Shown in pieces: positions 2-37,346 of a DNA stretch of 47,905 nucleotides (the first letter of the stretch is position 1; the number at the start of each line of letters is the position of its first letter). The position numbers and the translations under genes were made by a program. The notes under the pieces are model-generated. The model had not been told where the DNA came from, ran no database searches, and was given only the letters and a program-made list of their open reading frames with translations. The DNA comes from a virus: positions 1 through 47,905 of IMG/VR virus record IMGVR_UViG_3300028025_003813; one strand, given 5' to 3'.

Positions 2-211
2 ATTTCTTGTTTTACTTCTAATGGTAAAACAACACAAAGTCCTTTAGCTTATGAAAGGATCGATATATGGAAAGAGATATATAAGTTCTATACTTATTAC
101 TATGATAAATATAGTGGTGTTAAAGTTGTTAAAGAAGTACAGCCAAGAAAGTTTATAAAAGAAGAACCAGTAAAGCAAAAAGAAAAACCAATAATAAATA
201 CTTTATTTTAA
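2..211 (+). CDS. C-terminal part of an unidentified protein (5' truncated by window edge)
   Basis: The frame starting at base 2 is open from the window edge to a TAA at 209-211, giving 69 residues. The stop lies two bases before the ATG of the ThyA-family gene, the tight spacing seen throughout this plus-strand block, so the frame is likely real. The visible part has a Tyr-rich stretch (YKFYTYYYDKY) and a Lys/Glu/Pro-rich tail. I do not recognise the family. The frame is also in register with the ORF that runs off the right end of the window, which is discussed as a finding. Confidence 0.55.
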   Translation: MSCFTSNGKTTQSPLAYERIDIWKEIYKFYTYYYDKYSGVKVVKEVQPRKFIKEEPVKQKEKPIINTLF

Positions 212-212
212 T

Positions 213-980
213 ATGACAAAATACGAAGCACAATATAAAGAATTGTTATGGAAATGTATGACGAACGGGGTATATCGTAAAGATAGAACAAACGTAGGTT
301 GTTTATCAATATTCAATGCTGGCTTAAGAATTAATCTTAATGAAGGTTTCCCTTTATTAACTGGTAGAAAAATGTTTCAAAAGACTTTTGATACAGAGTT
401 TGATTGGTTTATGAATGGTGAAACTAATATTCAAAGATTCAAAGATGCTGGCGTAAAGATATGGGATTCTTGGGCGGATGAGAATGGAGATCTAGGACCA
501 GTATATGGCTATCAAATGCGTAACTTTAATGGTGCTGGAGGTGATCAACTTCAAGCTTTAATAACAAGTTTAAAAAATAATCCTGATAGCAGAAGACATA
601 TAATATCACTATGGAATCCATTACAGTTACATCAAATGGCATTGCCACCGTGTTATTTATATTTTCAATTCTTTGTAGAACAAGACAGACTTAATATGTT
701 TGTAGTTCAAAGATCAGGCGATATTTTTTTAGGGATACCTTATGATGTAGCTTTGTTTTCAAAAATACTTCTGTATATTGCAGAACAAACTAATTTGAAA
801 GCAAACTATATTGATATACAGATCGTGGATGCGCATGTTTACAGCAATCAACACGATGCTATACGCAAATATCTTGATCAAGAAACTTTTCAAGCACCGG
901 ACTATATTTACAAAAACGGAGCATTATCCTTAATAAATTACAAACACGGACCAGTAATAACGGCAAAAGTAGCCATTTAA
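213..980 (+). CDS. Thymidylate synthase (ThyA) family protein, predicted dCMP-specific methylase or hydroxymethylase
   Basis: This 255-residue protein has the complete ThyA fold signature: RKDRT at 22-26, Glu62, IWDSWADENGDLGPVYG at 83-99, SRRHIISLWNP at 126-136, the catalytic cysteine in ALPPC (Cys147), QRSGDIFLG at 166-174, His208/Tyr210, and the C-terminal AKVAI. Length matches bacterial ThyA (about 264). Two substrate-contact residues differ. The Asn that recognises the uracil ring (Asn177 in E. coli) is Asp178 here (GIPYDVA), and the His after the catalytic Cys is Tyr148. Known work shows that Asn-to-Asp at this site shifts specificity from dUMP to dCMP, and T4 dCMP hydroxymethylase carries Asp at the aligned position. 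I infer dCMP as substrate. The retained Trp84/Trp87 leave methylation and hydroxymethylation both possible. A plain thymidylate synthase is the alternative. It is the first complete gene of the plus block, next to two MazG-family genes. Confidence 0.9.
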   Translation: MTKYEAQYKELLWKCMTNGVYRKDRTNVGCLSIFNAGLRINLNEGFPLLTGRKMFQKTFDTEFDWFMNGETNIQRFKDAGVKIWDSWADENGDLGPVYGYQMRNFNGAGGDQLQALITSLKNNPDSRRHIISLWNPLQLHQMALPPCYLYFQFFVEQDRLNMFVVQRSGDIFLGIPYDVALFSKILLYIAEQTNLKANYIDIQIVDAHVYSNQHDAIRKYLDQETFQAPDYIYKNGALSLINYKHGPVITAKVAI

Positions 981-988
981 TCTTAATT

Positions 989-1888
989 ATGTATTATATA
1001 TATCACATTTTTGGTAAAAAGATCGGCGTTACACGTAATCTTAATAAGAGAGTTGAAGTTGCTCAGGGCTATATGCCAGGAGAATATGAAGTGATCGAAA
1101 TGCATGACGACATACATCATGTTTCAAATCGCGAAAGAGAACTACAACGACTTTATGGTTATAAAGTTGATCGAGATTCCTACAAACAAGTAATAGACAG
1201 TAAAAATAAACTAACTAAATCAAATAAAATGAAATTAAACATCACAGAACAAACGATTACGTTTCCATGTCCTCCAAATAAATTAAAGGGACAGCTCTTG
1301 GACGCATTAGGGCTTACATTTGAAACACAATACGGCAAGTATATATTGAATGCTGAATTAATAGATTGGATTGTCCAGAACGCTTCTGTGTCAATGTTTA
1401 ATATCAATCGTAGTTTTGTTTACAATAAAGCTTTATATAATGCTTTTAATAAAGCACCCGAAAAACTAATAGAAACCTCGTCTCAGCCAGTTGATATGAA
1501 AAGATCAATTAATGAACAATTAGAGGCAGCTTTTTCTAGTTTTTATGATGCAATGAAACAAGCTGAAAATAATAAAGAAAATAAACAGACTAGTAATGTA
1601 TACGACTTAATTAGAGAATGGGCTAATGATAAAGGTATTTACAAATCAGGTGATTCCAAAACACAATATGTTAAACTTATGGAAGAGTCTGGTGAATTAG
1701 CAAGAGCAATTCTAAAGCGAGATAAAACAGAAATTAAAGATGCGATTGGTGATATGATTGTTGTATTGACTAACTTAGCATATCTTGAAGGTTTTAATGT
1801 TGAGGATTGCGTTACGTCTGCTTATGATGTAATTAAGAATAGAACAGGTAAAATGGAAAACGGAACTTTTATGAAATCTACATTATAA
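989..1888 (+). CDS. GIY-YIG-like N-terminal domain fused to MazG-family nucleotide pyrophosphohydrolase
   Basis: The protein has 299 residues in three parts. Residues 1-70 (YYIYHIFGKKIGVTRNLNKRV, then a conserved-looking RERELQRLYGY) resemble a GIY-YIG nuclease core: paired Tyr motifs, an Arg after NLNK and a Glu on the next helix. Residues 85-160 are unassigned. Residues 205-299 form an all-alpha MazG-like domain with the metal-binding pattern EESGE followed by EIKDAIGD. MazG-family enzymes hydrolyse (d)NTPs to monophosphates. Beside a predicted dCMP-modifying enzyme, a dCTPase-type role is attractive but only inferred. The gene lies 8 nt after the ThyA homologue and 1 nt before the next gene, suggesting one operon. 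The MazG call is firm; the nuclease call is moderate because the first motif is degenerate. Confidence 0.8.
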   Translation: MYYIYHIFGKKIGVTRNLNKRVEVAQGYMPGEYEVIEMHDDIHHVSNRERELQRLYGYKVDRDSYKQVIDSKNKLTKSNKMKLNITEQTITFPCPPNKLKGQLLDALGLTFETQYGKYILNAELIDWIVQNASVSMFNINRSFVYNKALYNAFNKAPEKLIETSSQPVDMKRSINEQLEAAFSSFYDAMKQAENNKENKQTSNVYDLIREWANDKGIYKSGDSKTQYVKLMEESGELARAILKRDKTEIKDAIGDMIVVLTNLAYLEGFNVEDCVTSAYDVIKNRTGKMENGTFMKSTL

Positions 1889-1889
1889 T

Positions 1890-2351
1890 ATGCAAAAACA
1901 AGAAATTGAATTTAGAGACCCAGTTGTACAACAAGTAGTTAATAAATTTGTATCAAGATCTGATGTTGGCTTTGCTAAATATGGCAAGACTATGATTGAT
2001 GACAAGTCTGATATTAAAGTTTGGCTTAATCATGTACAAGAAGAATTAATGGATGCAACATTATATATTCAAAGATTAAAGATTGAAATTAATGATTTAA
2101 TTGAAGAACGTGTTACTAGAAACGAGATACAAGCTTTATTAGATTGTATTAATGTTGTTGATCCTGAATTTGTTTCTCCACAAGTTGAGTCGTTTAATGG
2201 TATATATGAAACTATTGCCAAGCACGAAAAGAAAAAGAAAAAGAAAAAAGCTTACAAGGTTGGAAGAGGTGATACTTATTCTTTTACTATTGATGACGAT
2301 ATTGAATCTGTTAGATGGCAATGTGATTGGTGCGGGCATGGCAAAAAGTAG
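1890..2351 (+). CDS. Second MazG-like (all-alpha NTP pyrophosphohydrolase superfamily) phage protein
   Basis: This 153-residue protein has an N-terminal half (SDVGFAKYGKTM, then VWLNHVQEELMDATLYIQRLK at 44-64) that matches the common phage helical family with a G-x-x-KYG motif followed by EE-x-x-D-A (Glu51, Glu52, Asp55). That family belongs to the MazG/dNTP pyrophosphohydrolase superfamily. A run of seven lysines (about residues 113-120) leads into a C-terminal tail ending in CDWCGHGKK, a single CxxC that could bind metal only with a partner. The gene starts 1 nt after the GIY-YIG/MazG gene and overlaps the endonuclease gene by 14 nt. The function is inferred from the helical motif, and the substrate is unknown. 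Confidence 0.65.
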   Translation: MQKQEIEFRDPVVQQVVNKFVSRSDVGFAKYGKTMIDDKSDIKVWLNHVQEELMDATLYIQRLKIEINDLIEERVTRNEIQALLDCINVVDPEFVSPQVESFNGIYETIAKHEKKKKKKKAYKVGRGDTYSFTIDDDIESVRWQCDWCGHGKK

Positions 2352-2799
2352 AAAAAAAGGTCCAGTAACAGCAAAGAAGATAATATATGATGGTATTACC
2401 TTTGCTTCAGGTCTTGAGAAGTATATGTACAAAGCTTTAAAAGACGCTGGTATAGATTTTAAATATGAGGGGGTAACGTTTGAATTGTTACCCTCCTTTA
2501 TATTTGAAAATGTTTCAATAGAAAGACAATCAAATGGCAAGGGAGATTTTATTAATAGGGGTCTAAAAAAGATATTAAACCTTAAATATACTCCAGACTT
2601 TGTTGGTGATAATTTTATAATTGAAACTAAAGGTAGAGCTAATGAATCTTTTCCATTACGTTGGAAACTATTTAAGAAGTGGATGATGGATAACAAAGAT
2701 TACCGAACATTATATAAGCCTCAGAATCAAGCTGAGTGTCTTAAAACAATTGAATTAATATTAGCTAATACAAAACAAAAAAAGAATGAACAAATTTAG
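2338..2799 (+). CDS. PDDEXK endonuclease, T7 endonuclease I/Holliday-junction-resolvase-like
   Basis: This 153-residue protein starts at MAKSRKKG. The same frame is open upstream to 2152, but that part is low-complexity shadow of the previous gene, so the start at 2338 is chosen. Motifs of the PDDEXK nuclease fold are in order: Glu27 in FASGLEKYMYKAL, Asp87 in KYTPDFVGD, and Glu96-x-Lys98 in FIIETKGR, followed by a basic helix (RWKLFKKWM). This arrangement matches phage T7 gp3-type endonucleases, which cleave branched DNA during recombination and before packaging. It may instead be a generic structure-specific nuclease. The gene overlaps both neighbours by 14 nt, implying translational coupling. 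Confidence 0.75.
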   Translation: MAKSRKKGPVTAKKIIYDGITFASGLEKYMYKALKDAGIDFKYEGVTFELLPSFIFENVSIERQSNGKGDFINRGLKKILNLKYTPDFVGDNFIIETKGRANESFPLRWKLFKKWMMDNKDYRTLYKPQNQAECLKTIELILANTKQKKNEQI

Positions 2800-2944: not shown

Positions 2945-4813
2945 ATGAGCCTTAGTTTAGACAAACAAATATTAAGTGATATTACTGTATACACAAAGTA
3001 TGCAAAGTACGTTCAATCAAAAGAGCGTAGAGAAACGTGGGAAGAATTAGTAACAAGGAATATGGATATGCACAAAGCCAAATTTCCACAAATGAAAGAA
3101 GCAATTGAACAAGTATACAAAAATTTCGTATTCACTAAAAAAGTGTTACCTTCAATGCGCAGCCTACAGTTTGGTGGGAAAGCTATTGAACTTAATAATG
3201 CTCGCATTTATAATTGCGCTTTTTTACCTGTCGATAATATTCGTAGTTTTTCTGAAACTATGTTTTTACTTCTTGGAGGCACTGGCGTTGGATATTCGGT
3301 ACAAAATCACAACATTGATAAACTACCTGAAATAAGAAAACCTAATTATGATCGCAAAAAACGTTATGTTGTTCAGGATAGCATTATTGGTTGGGCTGAT
3401 GCAATTAAAACATTATTCAAATCGTATACAGGAGAGTTAACTTCTCATATTGAATTTGATCTTTCAGATATACGCCAGAAGGGAGCATTGCTTGTAACGG
3501 CAGGAGGTAAAGCACCAGGACCGGAACCATTAAGATTAGCATTAGTTAAGATTGAAGCTATTCTTCGTGAAAAAGAAGACAGATCAAAATTAACAGATAT
3601 TGAATGCCATGATATTCAATGTCATATTGCCGATGCGGTTTTAGCTGGCGGTATTCGTAGAGCAGCAATGATTTCATTATTCGACCTTGACAGTACCGCA
3701 ATGTTAAATTGTAAAGCTGGAAATTGGTGGGAAGAAAATCCACAAAGAGGTAGAGCTAATAACTCAGTTGTTTTAGTACGCCATAAAATTGATAAGAAAA
3801 CATTTGATAAAGTATGGGAACGTATTGAAGCATCTGGATCAGGAGAGCCTGGAATTTATCTTACCAATGATAAAGATTGGGGTACAAATCCTTGCTGTGA
3901 GATTGCATTGAGACCATATCAATTCTGTAATTTAACAGAGATCAATATGGCTAACATCGAAGATCAAGAAGATTTTAATGCACGAGCATCTGCTGCCTCA
4001 TTCTTAGGAACATTACAAGCATCATACTCAGATTTTCATTATCTTCGCGATATATGGCGAAAGAATACAGAAAAAGATGCCTTACTTGGAGTTTCAATGA
4101 CGGGTATTGCGTCTAAGTCAAACTTAGAATTAAATTATGAAGAAGCAGCAAATACCGTTAAAGAAACAAACAAAGAAACAGCTAAAGCGCTTGGGATTAA
4201 TATCGCAGCAAGAACGACGGCCGTTAAGCCAGCTGGTACAACTAGCTTGGTACTTGGTACTTCTAGCGGGATACATGCTTGGCATAATGACTATTATATA
4301 CGTCGTATGCGCTTAGGCAAGAATGAAGCAATCTATTCTTATCTTGCAATTAATCATCCAGAATTACTCGAAGATGAATACTTTAATCCAACATTACAAT
4401 CAGTTATTTCAGTCCCTCAGAAGGCTCCAGATGGCGCTATAACACGACATGAATCAACATTAGATCTATTGGAAAGAGTAAAACTTATATCTAGAGATTG
4501 GGTTAAGACTGGCCATGATAAAGGTAACAATACACACAATGTATCCTGTACCGTTTCTGTTAGAGATGATGAATGGAAAATAATTGGTGAATGGATGTGG
4601 GCGAACAAAGAGTACTATAATGGACTATCTGTTTTGCCATATCACGGAGGTACATATAAACAAACTCCATTTGAAGATTGTACAAAAGAAGTGTACGATG
4701 AAATGATGTCTACTTTAAAGAATGTAGATTTATCGAAAGTAGTTGAGATACACGATAATACTAACTTTGCTGATTCAGCCGCTTGTGGAGGGGGAAATTG
4801 TGAGATTGTATAG
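2945..4813 (+). CDS. nrdJ: Adenosylcobalamin-dependent (class II) ribonucleoside-triphosphate reductase
   Basis: This enzyme reduces ribonucleotides to deoxyribonucleotides using coenzyme B12. The 622-residue sequence follows the monomeric class II pattern: LPSMRSLQFGG at 68-78, Cys91 in IYNCAF, NPCCEI with the expected thiyl cysteine Cys317, Cys328 in QFCNLTEIN, PAGTTSLVLGTSSGIH, and a C-terminal redox pair Cys614/Cys619 in CGGGNC. The 11-residue spacing of Cys317/Cys328 equals that of the thiyl and redox cysteines of Lactobacillus RTPR (408/419). At 622 residues it is shorter than that enzyme (739), so an allosteric insertion may be absent. It supplies dNTPs for phage DNA synthesis alongside the ThyA and MazG homologues, and activity would depend on host or environmental B12. 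The start at 2945 follows an A-rich leader (AAAAAATAAAT). Confidence 0.93.
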   Translation: MSLSLDKQILSDITVYTKYAKYVQSKERRETWEELVTRNMDMHKAKFPQMKEAIEQVYKNFVFTKKVLPSMRSLQFGGKAIELNNARIYNCAFLPVDNIRSFSETMFLLLGGTGVGYSVQNHNIDKLPEIRKPNYDRKKRYVVQDSIIGWADAIKTLFKSYTGELTSHIEFDLSDIRQKGALLVTAGGKAPGPEPLRLALVKIEAILREKEDRSKLTDIECHDIQCHIADAVLAGGIRRAAMISLFDLDSTAMLNCKAGNWWEENPQRGRANNSVVLVRHKIDKKTFDKVWERIEASGSGEPGIYLTNDKDWGTNPCCEIALRPYQFCNLTEINMANIEDQEDFNARASAASFLGTLQASYSDFHYLRDIWRKNTEKDALLGVSMTGIASKSNLELNYEEAANTVKETNKETAKALGINIAARTTAVKPAGTTSLVLGTSSGIHAWHNDYYIRRMRLGKNEAIYSYLAINHPELLEDEYFNPTLQSVISVPQKAPDGAITRHESTLDLLERVKLISRDWVKTGHDKGNNTHNVSCTVSVRDDEWKIIGEWMWANKEYYNGLSVLPYHGGTYKQTPFEDCTKEVYDEMMSTLKNVDLSKVVEIHDNTNFADSAACGGGNCEIV

Positions 4814-35100: not shown

Positions 35101-35543
35101 CTTGTTTTGTCTTTGTTTAAATTATTTATTGCTGAACGTAATACAATATCTGTATATGTATTATTCTTCATTATTTTATTGCTTCTTGCTGTAGTTGGAA
35201 TATCTTCTTCCCCTAGCATAATTCGGTACATTCTATGTATTAGTTGTTTGCACTTGAATGAAACTTTATATATGTTATACTTCTGGGTTGTACGGTTTCT
35301 ATTTCTCCATACCACTATCCATCCTTCTTTTAACAAATTGTTCCAGCGCTTATTGTCCCAACTATATGCGTATGTACCTATCTTATAATCTTGCTTGGTA
35401 AAAAAGTCCATGCAGTCAAAATATATTAATAATTCTAAATCAGCGTCAGTAAGATCATAATTTCTACAAGCCCATCTGCGTATTAACCTATAATGTTTTA
35501 ATAAGCCAAGACTTTTTATATCACTAGCCTCTATTCTTCTCAT
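35097..35543 (-). CDS. Winged-helix-like putative DNA-binding protein
   Basis: The 148-residue product is basic, with a helical region (SLGLLKHYRLIRRWACRNYD, then LTDADLELLIYFDCMDFFTK) followed by a helix and wing-like segment (WDNKRWNNLLKEGWIVVWRN) ending RTTQKYNIYKVSFKCKQLIH. This order resembles MarR/PadR-type winged-helix proteins: two helices, a recognition helix rich in Asn/Arg/Trp and a beta hairpin. The C-terminal part is basic. It overlaps groES by 4 nt (ATGA) and the next gene by 4 nt. It could regulate late genes, or be a structural DNA-binder. Confidence 0.6.
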   Translation of the reverse strand: MRRIEASDIKSLGLLKHYRLIRRWACRNYDLTDADLELLIYFDCMDFFTKQDYKIGTYAYSWDNKRWNNLLKEGWIVVWRNRNRTTQKYNIYKVSFKCKQLIHRMYRIMLGEEDIPTTARSNKIMKNNTYTDIVLRSAINNLNKDKTR

Positions 35544-35800
35544 AGAACTATTACAACATCTTGTAATCTTATAACTTGATATTCATGCCCGTCAAATTCA
35601 ATTCCATGACCTGCAGCTTTATCATAGTAAATAACATCAGCTTCTTTTAAACATTTAATATCCTCACTAACAGAAACTACAATAGCTTCTTTATATCTAA
35701 TGTTTTCTTTATCTTTTTCTTTTAATAATAAACCATTTTCCGTTTTTGATAATCCTTCTTTCCTTGGAAGGATTACTATATTATTACCTATTGCCTTCAT
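35540..35800 (-). CDS. groES: Phage-encoded co-chaperonin GroES
   Basis: This 86-residue protein has the GroES barrel: KAIGNNIVILPRKEG at the start, a mobile loop with the hydrophobic tripeptide in TENGLLLKEKD, then AIVVSVSEDI, a DVIYYDKAAGHGIEFDGHEY roof/barrel segment, and the closing RLQDVVIVL strand. It is somewhat shorter than E. coli GroES (97). It lies downstream of groEL with a 17-nt overlap, the reverse of the bacterial groES-groEL order, and its stop overlaps the winged-helix gene by 4 nt. The phage pair presumably forms its own chaperonin cage or co-operates with host GroEL. Confidence 0.88.
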   Translation of the reverse strand: MKAIGNNIVILPRKEGLSKTENGLLLKEKDKENIRYKEAIVVSVSEDIKCLKEADVIYYDKAAGHGIEFDGHEYQVIRLQDVVIVL

Positions 35801-37346
35801 TGATTCTTAAATTATTAATTATACAATCAGTTGACAATATGGTAATAGCTACAGAAGCTGCATTCATTAATGCACTTTTTGTAACAGATAATGGATCAAT
35901 AATACCCGCTTCAATCATATTAACTTCTTCTCCAGTTACAGCATTCAATCCGGATCCATCTGGACGACTTAATGTTGAACTTGGTATATCAATACCCGCA
36001 TTAGTTAATATTGTCTTAAACGGAGCCGTAATAGCTTTTAACAACGCTTCTTCAGCTTTATTCTTGAATACAATTATTCTTGATGCATCTAAAAGAGCAA
36101 TTCCTCCTCCCGGAACAATTCCTTCTTTAATAGCGGCTTTAGTTGCGCAAATTGCATCTTCAACTCTATCTGCCTTTTCTTTTAATTCAATATCAGATCC
36201 AGCCCCCACTTTTACTACTGCTACTTTTGCAGATAATCTAGCTAATCTTTTTTCTATTCTAATTACTTCAGCCGGTGGTAAGCTCGCTTCTAATTGTGAT
36301 TTTAATTCATCAATTAAAACTTGAACTTCTTCTTTTGTTTCACCAACGTGTAATATAGTTTCTGTATCACTAGTTATTGCTTTTAAACAATGACCTAAAC
36401 AATCCACATCAATAAGATCCATATCGTCTCCTAAGTCCTCATTTATAATAGTAGCACCTGTTAATAATGCTAAATCCGATAATGTATCTTTTTTATTAAT
36501 ACCGTACGTTGGGGCATTAATCACATTTACTTTAATATTACCTTTTACTTTATTCATTGCAAGAGCGGCTAATACTGTTTGCTCCATGTCTGCAATAATA
36601 AGTAATGGCTTGTTTGCTTTTATAACGTATTCTAAAACCGATTGTATTTGTCTTATAGATTCAACTGGTGATTCAATAAGCAATACTAATGGATTTTCTA
36701 ATTCAGCAACTCTTTTGTTAGGGTTAGTAATAAAATGTGAATTTACTAAACCTTTATCATATTGGACACCATCAATAATTTCTATTTCCGTTTCTGCATT
36801 TGCCGATGATTCCATCATAACAATTCCGGTTTCACCAACCTCTCTAAATGCATCTGCAATAATCTTTCCAAGTACTGGATCATTATTAGTTGAAATTGTA
36901 GCAATGTGATCTATCATATCCCCGGTTACTGAAACTTTAATAGATTCTAAATATTCTACTACTTTGTCAACTGTTTGTTCAATACCGTTTTTTAAATCTC
37001 TTGTATTAACTGTATCTTGGATTGCATAAGCTTCTTGTAAAATAGCATGAGCTAATACTGTTGCAGTTGTTGTTCCGTCTCCGGCTTCTTTAACTGTTTT
37101 TCTAGCTGCTTCTTTTAAAAGTCTTGCCCCCATATTTTCAACTGGATCAAGTAATGTAATGCTGTCTGCTACTGTAACACCGTCTTTTGTAATAATCGGT
37201 CTACCTTTTCCGTCTTCTAGCATTACACATTTTCCACCTGCCCCAAGTGTTGAACTAACTGCTTTTGTAAGTTTCTCGATACCCGCAAAAACATTGTCCC
37301 TCGCCTCTTTGCCGAAGCTGAGGTTTTTAACTATTTCATCGCTCAT
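35784..37346 (-). CDS. groEL: Phage-encoded chaperonin GroEL (Hsp60)
   Basis: The 520-residue protein has all equatorial ATPase signatures: PIITKDGVTVAD with Asp55 (E. coli Asp52), AGDGTTTATVLA with Asp90 (E. coli Asp87), and RVEDAICATKAAIKEGIVPGGG near the C-terminal domain (retaining the Asp aligned with E. coli Asp398). The apical substrate-binding rim differs. E. coli YLSPYF is LVNSHF here (Tyr199 to Leu200, Tyr203 to His204, Phe204 kept as Phe205), suggesting altered client or co-chaperonin preference. The C terminus stops at INEGNR without the Gly-Gly-Met tail of bacterial GroELs. It is the first gene of the groEL-groES pair and probably folds phage structural proteins. The leader is A/T-only. 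Confidence 0.95.
   Translation of the reverse strand: MSDEIVKNLSFGKEARDNVFAGIEKLTKAVSSTLGAGGKCVMLEDGKGRPIITKDGVTVADSITLLDPVENMGARLLKEAARKTVKEAGDGTTTATVLAHAILQEAYAIQDTVNTRDLKNGIEQTVDKVVEYLESIKVSVTGDMIDHIATISTNNDPVLGKIIADAFREVGETGIVMMESSANAETEIEIIDGVQYDKGLVNSHFITNPNKRVAELENPLVLLIESPVESIRQIQSVLEYVIKANKPLLIIADMEQTVLAALAMNKVKGNIKVNVINAPTYGINKKDTLSDLALLTGATIINEDLGDDMDLIDVDCLGHCLKAITSDTETILHVGETKEEVQVLIDELKSQLEASLPPAEVIRIEKRLARLSAKVAVVKVGAGSDIELKEKADRVEDAICATKAAIKEGIVPGGGIALLDASRIIVFKNKAEEALLKAITAPFKTILTNAGIDIPSSTLSRPDGSGLNAVTGEEVNMIEAGIIDPLSVTKSALMNAASVAITILSTDCIINNLRINEGNR

Follow-up and report, generated by a model that had tools for sequence, protein, structure and literature searches.

Cytosine modification of phage DNA is a known shield against bacterial restriction, and the change of specificity that an Asn-to-Asp replacement brings about in thymidylate synthase (TS) is a textbook case. 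In the DNA of phage Xp12, 5-methylcytosine replaces cytosine (PMC9206674). The laboratory versions of the replacement, N229D in Lactobacillus casei TS and N177D in E. coli TS, lose the preference for dUMP (cited in PMC8670742). MetaGPA, which selects enzymatically for phage DNA with modified cytosines, places 177 and 147 at the top of the TS positions associated with cytosine-modified contigs, and also finds that TS and PRA-PH domains co-occur, often specifically in modified contigs. Both the two positions and the pairing of TS with PRA-PH are thereby tied to cytosine modification independently of the present analysis (PMC8670742). The related hydroxymethylases have a signature of their own, drawn from the T4 ternary complex: Asp at the third residue before the catalytic Cys (Cys-3), where TS has Leu; Ser at the second residue before the catalytic Tyr; Val in place of Trp83; and no C-terminal tail (PMC6400193). 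A dCMP methylase in Xp12 and Asp177 enzymes of the TS family in modified phages are already known. Below, "position" or "column" refers to E. coli TS numbering.

The locus and its carrier phage

The DNA analysed here ("the window"), a fragment of 47,905 nucleotides from a virus record, has a GC content of 33.7%. Flavobacterium elemoviruses, Maribacter phage Panino and a Manatee Spring podovirus genome encode major capsid proteins that share 42-50% identity with the one in the window; for Cellulophaga phages phi38:1 and Calle_1 the figure is ~37%. The carrier is probably a podovirus-type phage of Bacteroidota, as far as such protein likeness can tell. A megablast search of the region against named phages returned no match. 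The features at the start of the window, all on the plus strand, are:

2-211 (+): end of a small gene (cluster c19), cut by the contig end; in relatives it lies between primase-helicase and the ThyA homologue
213-980 (+): ThyA-family enzyme, 255 aa, predicted dCMP methylase (PF00303, alignment to E. coli TS, AlphaFold model)
989-1888 (+): GIY-YIG-like (MUG113/T5orf172) N-terminus fused to a MazG/PRA-PH pyrophosphohydrolase (PF03819 8.6e-8; PF01503 above cut-off)
1890-2351 (+): small conserved protein (cluster c47), same gene run; matches only unnamed PHROGs
2338-2799 (+): DUF1064 / Holliday-junction-resolvase-like nuclease, same gene run (PF06356 3e-8, phrog_190; start inferred at ATG 2338)
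2945-4813 (+): ribonucleotide reductase, probable deoxynucleotide supplier (phrog_367 3e-130)

In relatives (up to 68 kb) the order is sigma factor, ERF, exonuclease, primase/helicase, small gene and ThyA homologue, followed by MazG fusion, small gene, nuclease and ribonucleotide reductase. Elsewhere in the window a GroEL is encoded at 35784-37346, together with a GroES-like ORF at 35540-35800. In one relative, G009 (L037-L040), clusters c1, c56, c2 and c3 recur at both contig ends (first and last ~1.4 kb), which suggests that the ~66-kb genome is complete and either circular or terminally redundant; among the Pfam and PHROGs matches listed for its 73 proteins there is a primase-helicase and no DNA polymerase family.

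A ThyA-family enzyme with Asp in the Asn177 column

The ORF at 213-980 is intact, and its product matches PF00303 over the entire 255-aa length (E 2.9e-76). The best PDB matches of its AlphaFold model (15 homologues, pLDDT 83.7) are E. coli TS, with a Foldseek TM of 0.88-0.89 and a sequence identity of ~39-40%. All catalytic and folate-site residues of E. coli ThyA are present: the Cys147 nucleophile, Trp84 and Trp87 (W80 and W83), Tyr98 (Y94), the Arg pair R127/R128, Arg167-Ser168, Asp170, His208 and Tyr210, as well as a TS-type C-terminal tail (VITAKVAI; GIKAPVAI in E. coli). Leu144 stands at Cys-3. In fold and catalytic residues the protein conforms to thymidylate synthase, and the curated NCBIfam model for that enzyme, TIGR03284, scores it above cut-off, as it does other Asp177 enzymes. 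It differs from E. coli ThyA at three positions. Asp178 (codon GAT) aligns with Asn177, the residue expected of an enzyme that uses dUMP; Tyr148 (codon TAT), directly after the catalytic Cys, aligns with His147; and Tyr177 aligns with Phe176. An earlier note on this DNA had given the same coordinates and residue numbers and had claimed that the ThyA catalytic and binding residues are present, that the Trp pair (84, 87) is kept, that Tyr replaces the His after Cys147 and that Asp178 replaces the uracil-reading Asn. Alignment to E. coli TS bears out each of these, including the last, for which it was the check that could have overturned the claim. The specificity change is the same single replacement on a TS scaffold as in the laboratory mutants, but the window version is natural, fixed in a phage lineage and accompanied by Tyr at positions 147 and 176.

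Two scans of viral contigs yielded 48 close homologues (L059-L106; 53-99% identical), and all 48 carry Asp177 with Tyr147, so the two residues (Asp178 and Tyr148 in the window) are not sequencing errors. The next relative, L107, combines Asp177 with His147. The window protein falls within a supported set of 16 Asp177 enzymes in a tree from which columns 147, 176 and 177 were left out; supported contrasts number only two, too few to test Asp177 associations on independent lineages. When T4 gp42 and the DLP4 enzyme are included in a tree, both form long branches, and the tree does not place the origin of Asp177 relative to them.

The same residues were followed more widely by scanning viral contigs with two otherwise equal DNA patterns that end in Asp or Asn codons. 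After deduplication at 90%, the matches listed comprised 98 Asp177 and 100 Asn177 enzymes, and counts in these samples are of contigs rather than of independent origins. Among the matches listed, position 147 is His in all 100 Asn177 enzymes, a residue that the window protein lacks, while the 98 Asp177 enzymes have His (51), Tyr (42) or another residue (5). Position 176 is Tyr in 91/98 Asp177 enzymes versus 1/100 Asn177 enzymes, again among the matches listed.

The MazG partner and enzyme exchange in one slot

The gene for the MazG fusion begins 8 bases past the ThyA stop, and its MazG domain spans about residues 226-285 (nt 1664-1843). Between this domain and the GIY-YIG-like N-terminus lies a conserved middle region (NVTEQTTTFPCP). 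The fusion adjoins the ThyA homologue in all 48 contigs of the clade. In the motif samples, a MazG profile seeded with proteins found beside Asp177 enzymes located a MazG within 3.5 kb of 86/98 Asp177 genes, mostly directly downstream, versus 0/100 Asn177 genes, and near 69 of the 79 Asp177 genes whose products are less than 50% identical to the window protein (same distance; all among the matches listed). The counts stayed the same when the profile was iterated with a distant archaeal MazG and the DLP4 protein included. In one case, L112:4762-5064, a MazG domain alone adjoins the Asp177 enzyme. The same MazG subfamily is common in many phages outside this pairing, and for that reason the linkage runs one way only: the idea that MazG specifically marks cytosine modification was considered and rejected, and the subfamily alone is not a dCTPase marker. 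The Asp177 enzymes of MetaGPA resemble the window's in Asp177 itself, in position 147 being altered as a class and in the co-occurrence with PRA-PH/MazG. Its modified contigs differ in that they often link to carbamoyltransferases and deaminases, none of which was seen for the window lineage.

The position between primase/helicase and MazG fusion, here called the slot, does not always hold the same enzyme. Three further phages of the capsid group (G029, G031 and G032) share ~69-71% capsid protein identity with the window's relatives. In G031 the slot holds a TS-family enzyme with Asp177 and His147 that is 36% identical, and in G029 and G032 it holds gp42/MilA-like enzymes. The slot enzyme of G032 (L481:3841-4491) matches MilA (2e-19) and T4 dCMP hydroxymethylase (1e-16) before any thymidylate synthase. 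At L483:174-827, as at the L481 locus, such a T4 gp42/MilA-like, hydroxymethylase-type enzyme stands in for the ThyA-like gene. By sequence, then, the MazG slot accepts a dCMP hydroxymethylase instead of the ThyA-like enzyme. The ribonucleotide reductase of the relative L481 (L481:6317-10310) looks two-subunit (322-aa and 573-aa ORFs), as against the single 622-aa protein of the window, and is a second exchange in the same region.

A scan anchored on the MazG fusion found 80 loci, 78 with a readable upstream neighbour; in the two without a TS-family match, the contig extends just 96 and 222 bases beyond the fusion on that side. All 78 readable neighbours are TS-family genes with Asp177, and Asn occurs in none (0/78). 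With Cys-3 residues counted directly from the sequences (gaps shift alignment column 143 in gp42-type enzymes), 50/78 have Leu at Cys-3, the methylase scaffold; roughly half of these carry Trp83 and Tyr147 like the window and roughly half Asp83 and His147. The other 28 are of T4 gp42/MilA type: they have Asp at Cys-3 and Thr147, and Ser stands two before the catalytic Tyr in 27/27 gp42-type enzymes that reach that position. The slot takes either scaffold, always with the cytosine-reading Asp, and this is the strongest sequence evidence here for a cytosine-nucleotide substrate.

Probable substrate and product, and likely protection of phage DNA

We consider it likely that the 213-980 protein is a dCMP-specific methylase on a nearly canonical TS scaffold, making 5-methyl-dCMP for phage DNA. 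For its substrate, product and purpose and for the DNA content we infer the following course. Asp178, in place of the uracil-reading Asn, would hold cytosine and protonate N3, as T4 Asp179 and the laboratory Asn-to-Asp mutants suggest. Cys147 would attack C6, and the added carbon would come from methylene-tetrahydrofolate. The exocyclic methylene would then be reduced to methyl by hydride transfer rather than hydrated, because the Trp87/Leu144 wall and the closing TS C-tail are kept. The adjoining MazG-family enzyme would probably hydrolyse dCTP, which would both supply the methylase with dCMP and reduce the pool of unmodified dCTP. Host enzymes would phosphorylate the 5-methyl-dCMP and recycle dihydrofolate, and a polymerase would place 5-methylcytosine in phage DNA, where it would likely confer resistance to host restriction. 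The pathway appears to lean on the host, since no dCMP deaminase (PF00383) was found in 28 clade records, many of them nearly complete in length, and no DHFR or nucleotide kinase among the Pfam families listed for G009 (25 of 27 families, 73 proteins, mostly of the early region). The earlier note had read dCMP as the substrate, a reading that the alignment, the MazG neighbour and the hydroxymethylase exchange in the slot all support.

Points against the methylase are this lean on the host, the TIGR03284 score, the spread of the MazG subfamily beyond the pairing, and the His147 kept by half of the Asp177 enzymes (motif sample, among the matches listed); three other outcomes have to be weighed. 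In the closest of them dCMP is still the substrate, and the exocyclic methylene takes up water, so that the phage would contain 5-hydroxymethylcytosine. T4 gp42 and MilA CMP hydroxymethylase share the fold, the catalytic Cys and Asp177 with the window protein, and their relatives occupy the same slot by the same MazG in other phages of the group. The hydroxymethylase signature, however, is absent. At Cys-3 the window protein has Leu144 where T4 has Asp145, and before the catalytic Tyr it has Pro96/Val97 instead of Ser-Asn (T4 Ser94). It also keeps Trp87 (T4 Val85) and the TS-type tail that T4 lacks. Because it fails all four marks and keeps the TS state at each, while the gp42-type slot enzymes show the first two, methylation is the better call, on a signature drawn from few characterised enzymes and shown cleanly in neither state by the DLP4 enzyme. 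The Pfam families listed for the 73 G009 proteins likewise include no glycosyl- or carbamoyltransferase. A hydroxymethylase at 213-980 is accordingly an improbable reading, and the mild lean of the earlier note to methylation has gained strength, as the shared Asp is the only signature residue present. Comparison with dCMP methylase (EC 2.1.1.54, Xp12 type), for which the Xp12-like phages DLP4 and AXL1 served as stand-ins, shows a common TS family, Asp in the Asn177 column and an adjoining pyrophosphohydrolase gene. The window protein has the TS-type reductive scaffold (Trp83, Leu143, C-tail) looked for in such a methylase, a state that the DLP4 enzyme itself does not have. Close kinship is lacking: the DLP4 enzyme sits on a separate, long branch far from the window protein. 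It has Phe83, Pro147 and, at Cys-3, Asn, it lacks a TS-like C-tail, and its cassette also includes dCMP deaminase and DHFR.

The protein could also be a thymidylate synthase that still uses dUMP despite Asp178 and boosts dTMP for an AT-rich phage. The TIGR03284 score, the low GC content, the nearby ribonucleotide reductase and the lack of a second TS in 19 relatives would all fit. We nevertheless hold this to be unlikely, given the loss of dUMP preference in the L. casei and E. coli mutants (cited in PMC8670742), the invariance of Asp across the clade, and a slot that accepts Asp177 hydroxymethylases and never an enzyme with Asn. Far less probable is a detour in which 5-methyl-dCMP, once made from dCMP, is deaminated to dTMP, leaving the DNA unmodified. 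In favour of it, the marine phage L052 has a distant Asp177 enzyme with an adjoining dCMP deaminase, but the 28 clade records are without that deaminase. L052 is the autographivirus MedDCM-OCT-S28-C10, in which one run (L052:2164-4185) combines an Asp177/Tyr147 "thyA", an NTP pyrophosphohydrolase, the deaminase and a nucleotide kinase. The run, annotated as thymidylate synthesis, is probably a further cassette for cytosine modification.

On the dCMP-methylase reading the phage DNA would be protected, and restriction-site palindromes bear on this. Five relatives without a TS gene in the entire record (four complete genomes and the near-complete elemoF) were compared with 29 slot-enzyme contigs; G030 and G033-G037 do not cover the slot and were left out as evidence for lack of a TS gene. 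Each of the five has lost at least one 4-base palindrome that contains C/G: GATC (0/117) and CCGG (0/16) in MW202828, GATC (0/132) and CCGG (0/45) in Panino, CATG (0/90) in elemoF, and CGCG in phi38:1 and Calle_1. By record, GATC, CCGG, CATG, GGCC or CGCG are purged in the TS-lacking L050, L051, L363, L486 and L487. Only one of the 29 slot-enzyme contigs shows a loss (G009, CATG 32/186); in these contigs GATC and CCGG are at expectation, and CATG is mildly under-represented in many that carry the gene. The pattern fits protected DNA, in a comparison confounded by host, habitat, isolation and GC content and between groups that are not independent lineages. Very probably, to judge from sequence, phages with a cytosine-type slot enzyme build DNA with modified cytosine, most likely 5-methylated.

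New here, and not found in the open-licence papers searched, are this lineage, the MazG fusion as its fixed partner, and a single slot in which methylase-type and hydroxymethylase-type enzymes replace each other. We give an even chance to the broader proposal of an exchangeable cassette for cytosine modification, carried by a large uncultured phage group (represented here by podoviruses with kinship to Bacteroidota phages). In this cassette a constant MazG partner would work with TS-family enzymes that can stand in for one another, two types with the methylase scaffold and one of hydroxymethylase type. Close relatives would thus differ in 5-methyl- versus 5-hydroxymethylcytosine, perhaps under pressure from modification-dependent restriction, and the slot swap would be a natural experiment on how phages choose between the two. 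The enzymes are also natural versions of the classic Asn-to-Asp mutation, with testable companion changes at 147 and 176. Such genes are now annotated as plain thymidylate synthase; the two residues and the MazG neighbour flag probable cytosine-modifying enzymes, by which many viral genomes could be re-annotated, and they predict which environmental phage DNA would resist cytosine-sensitive cutting and bisulfite-type conversion.
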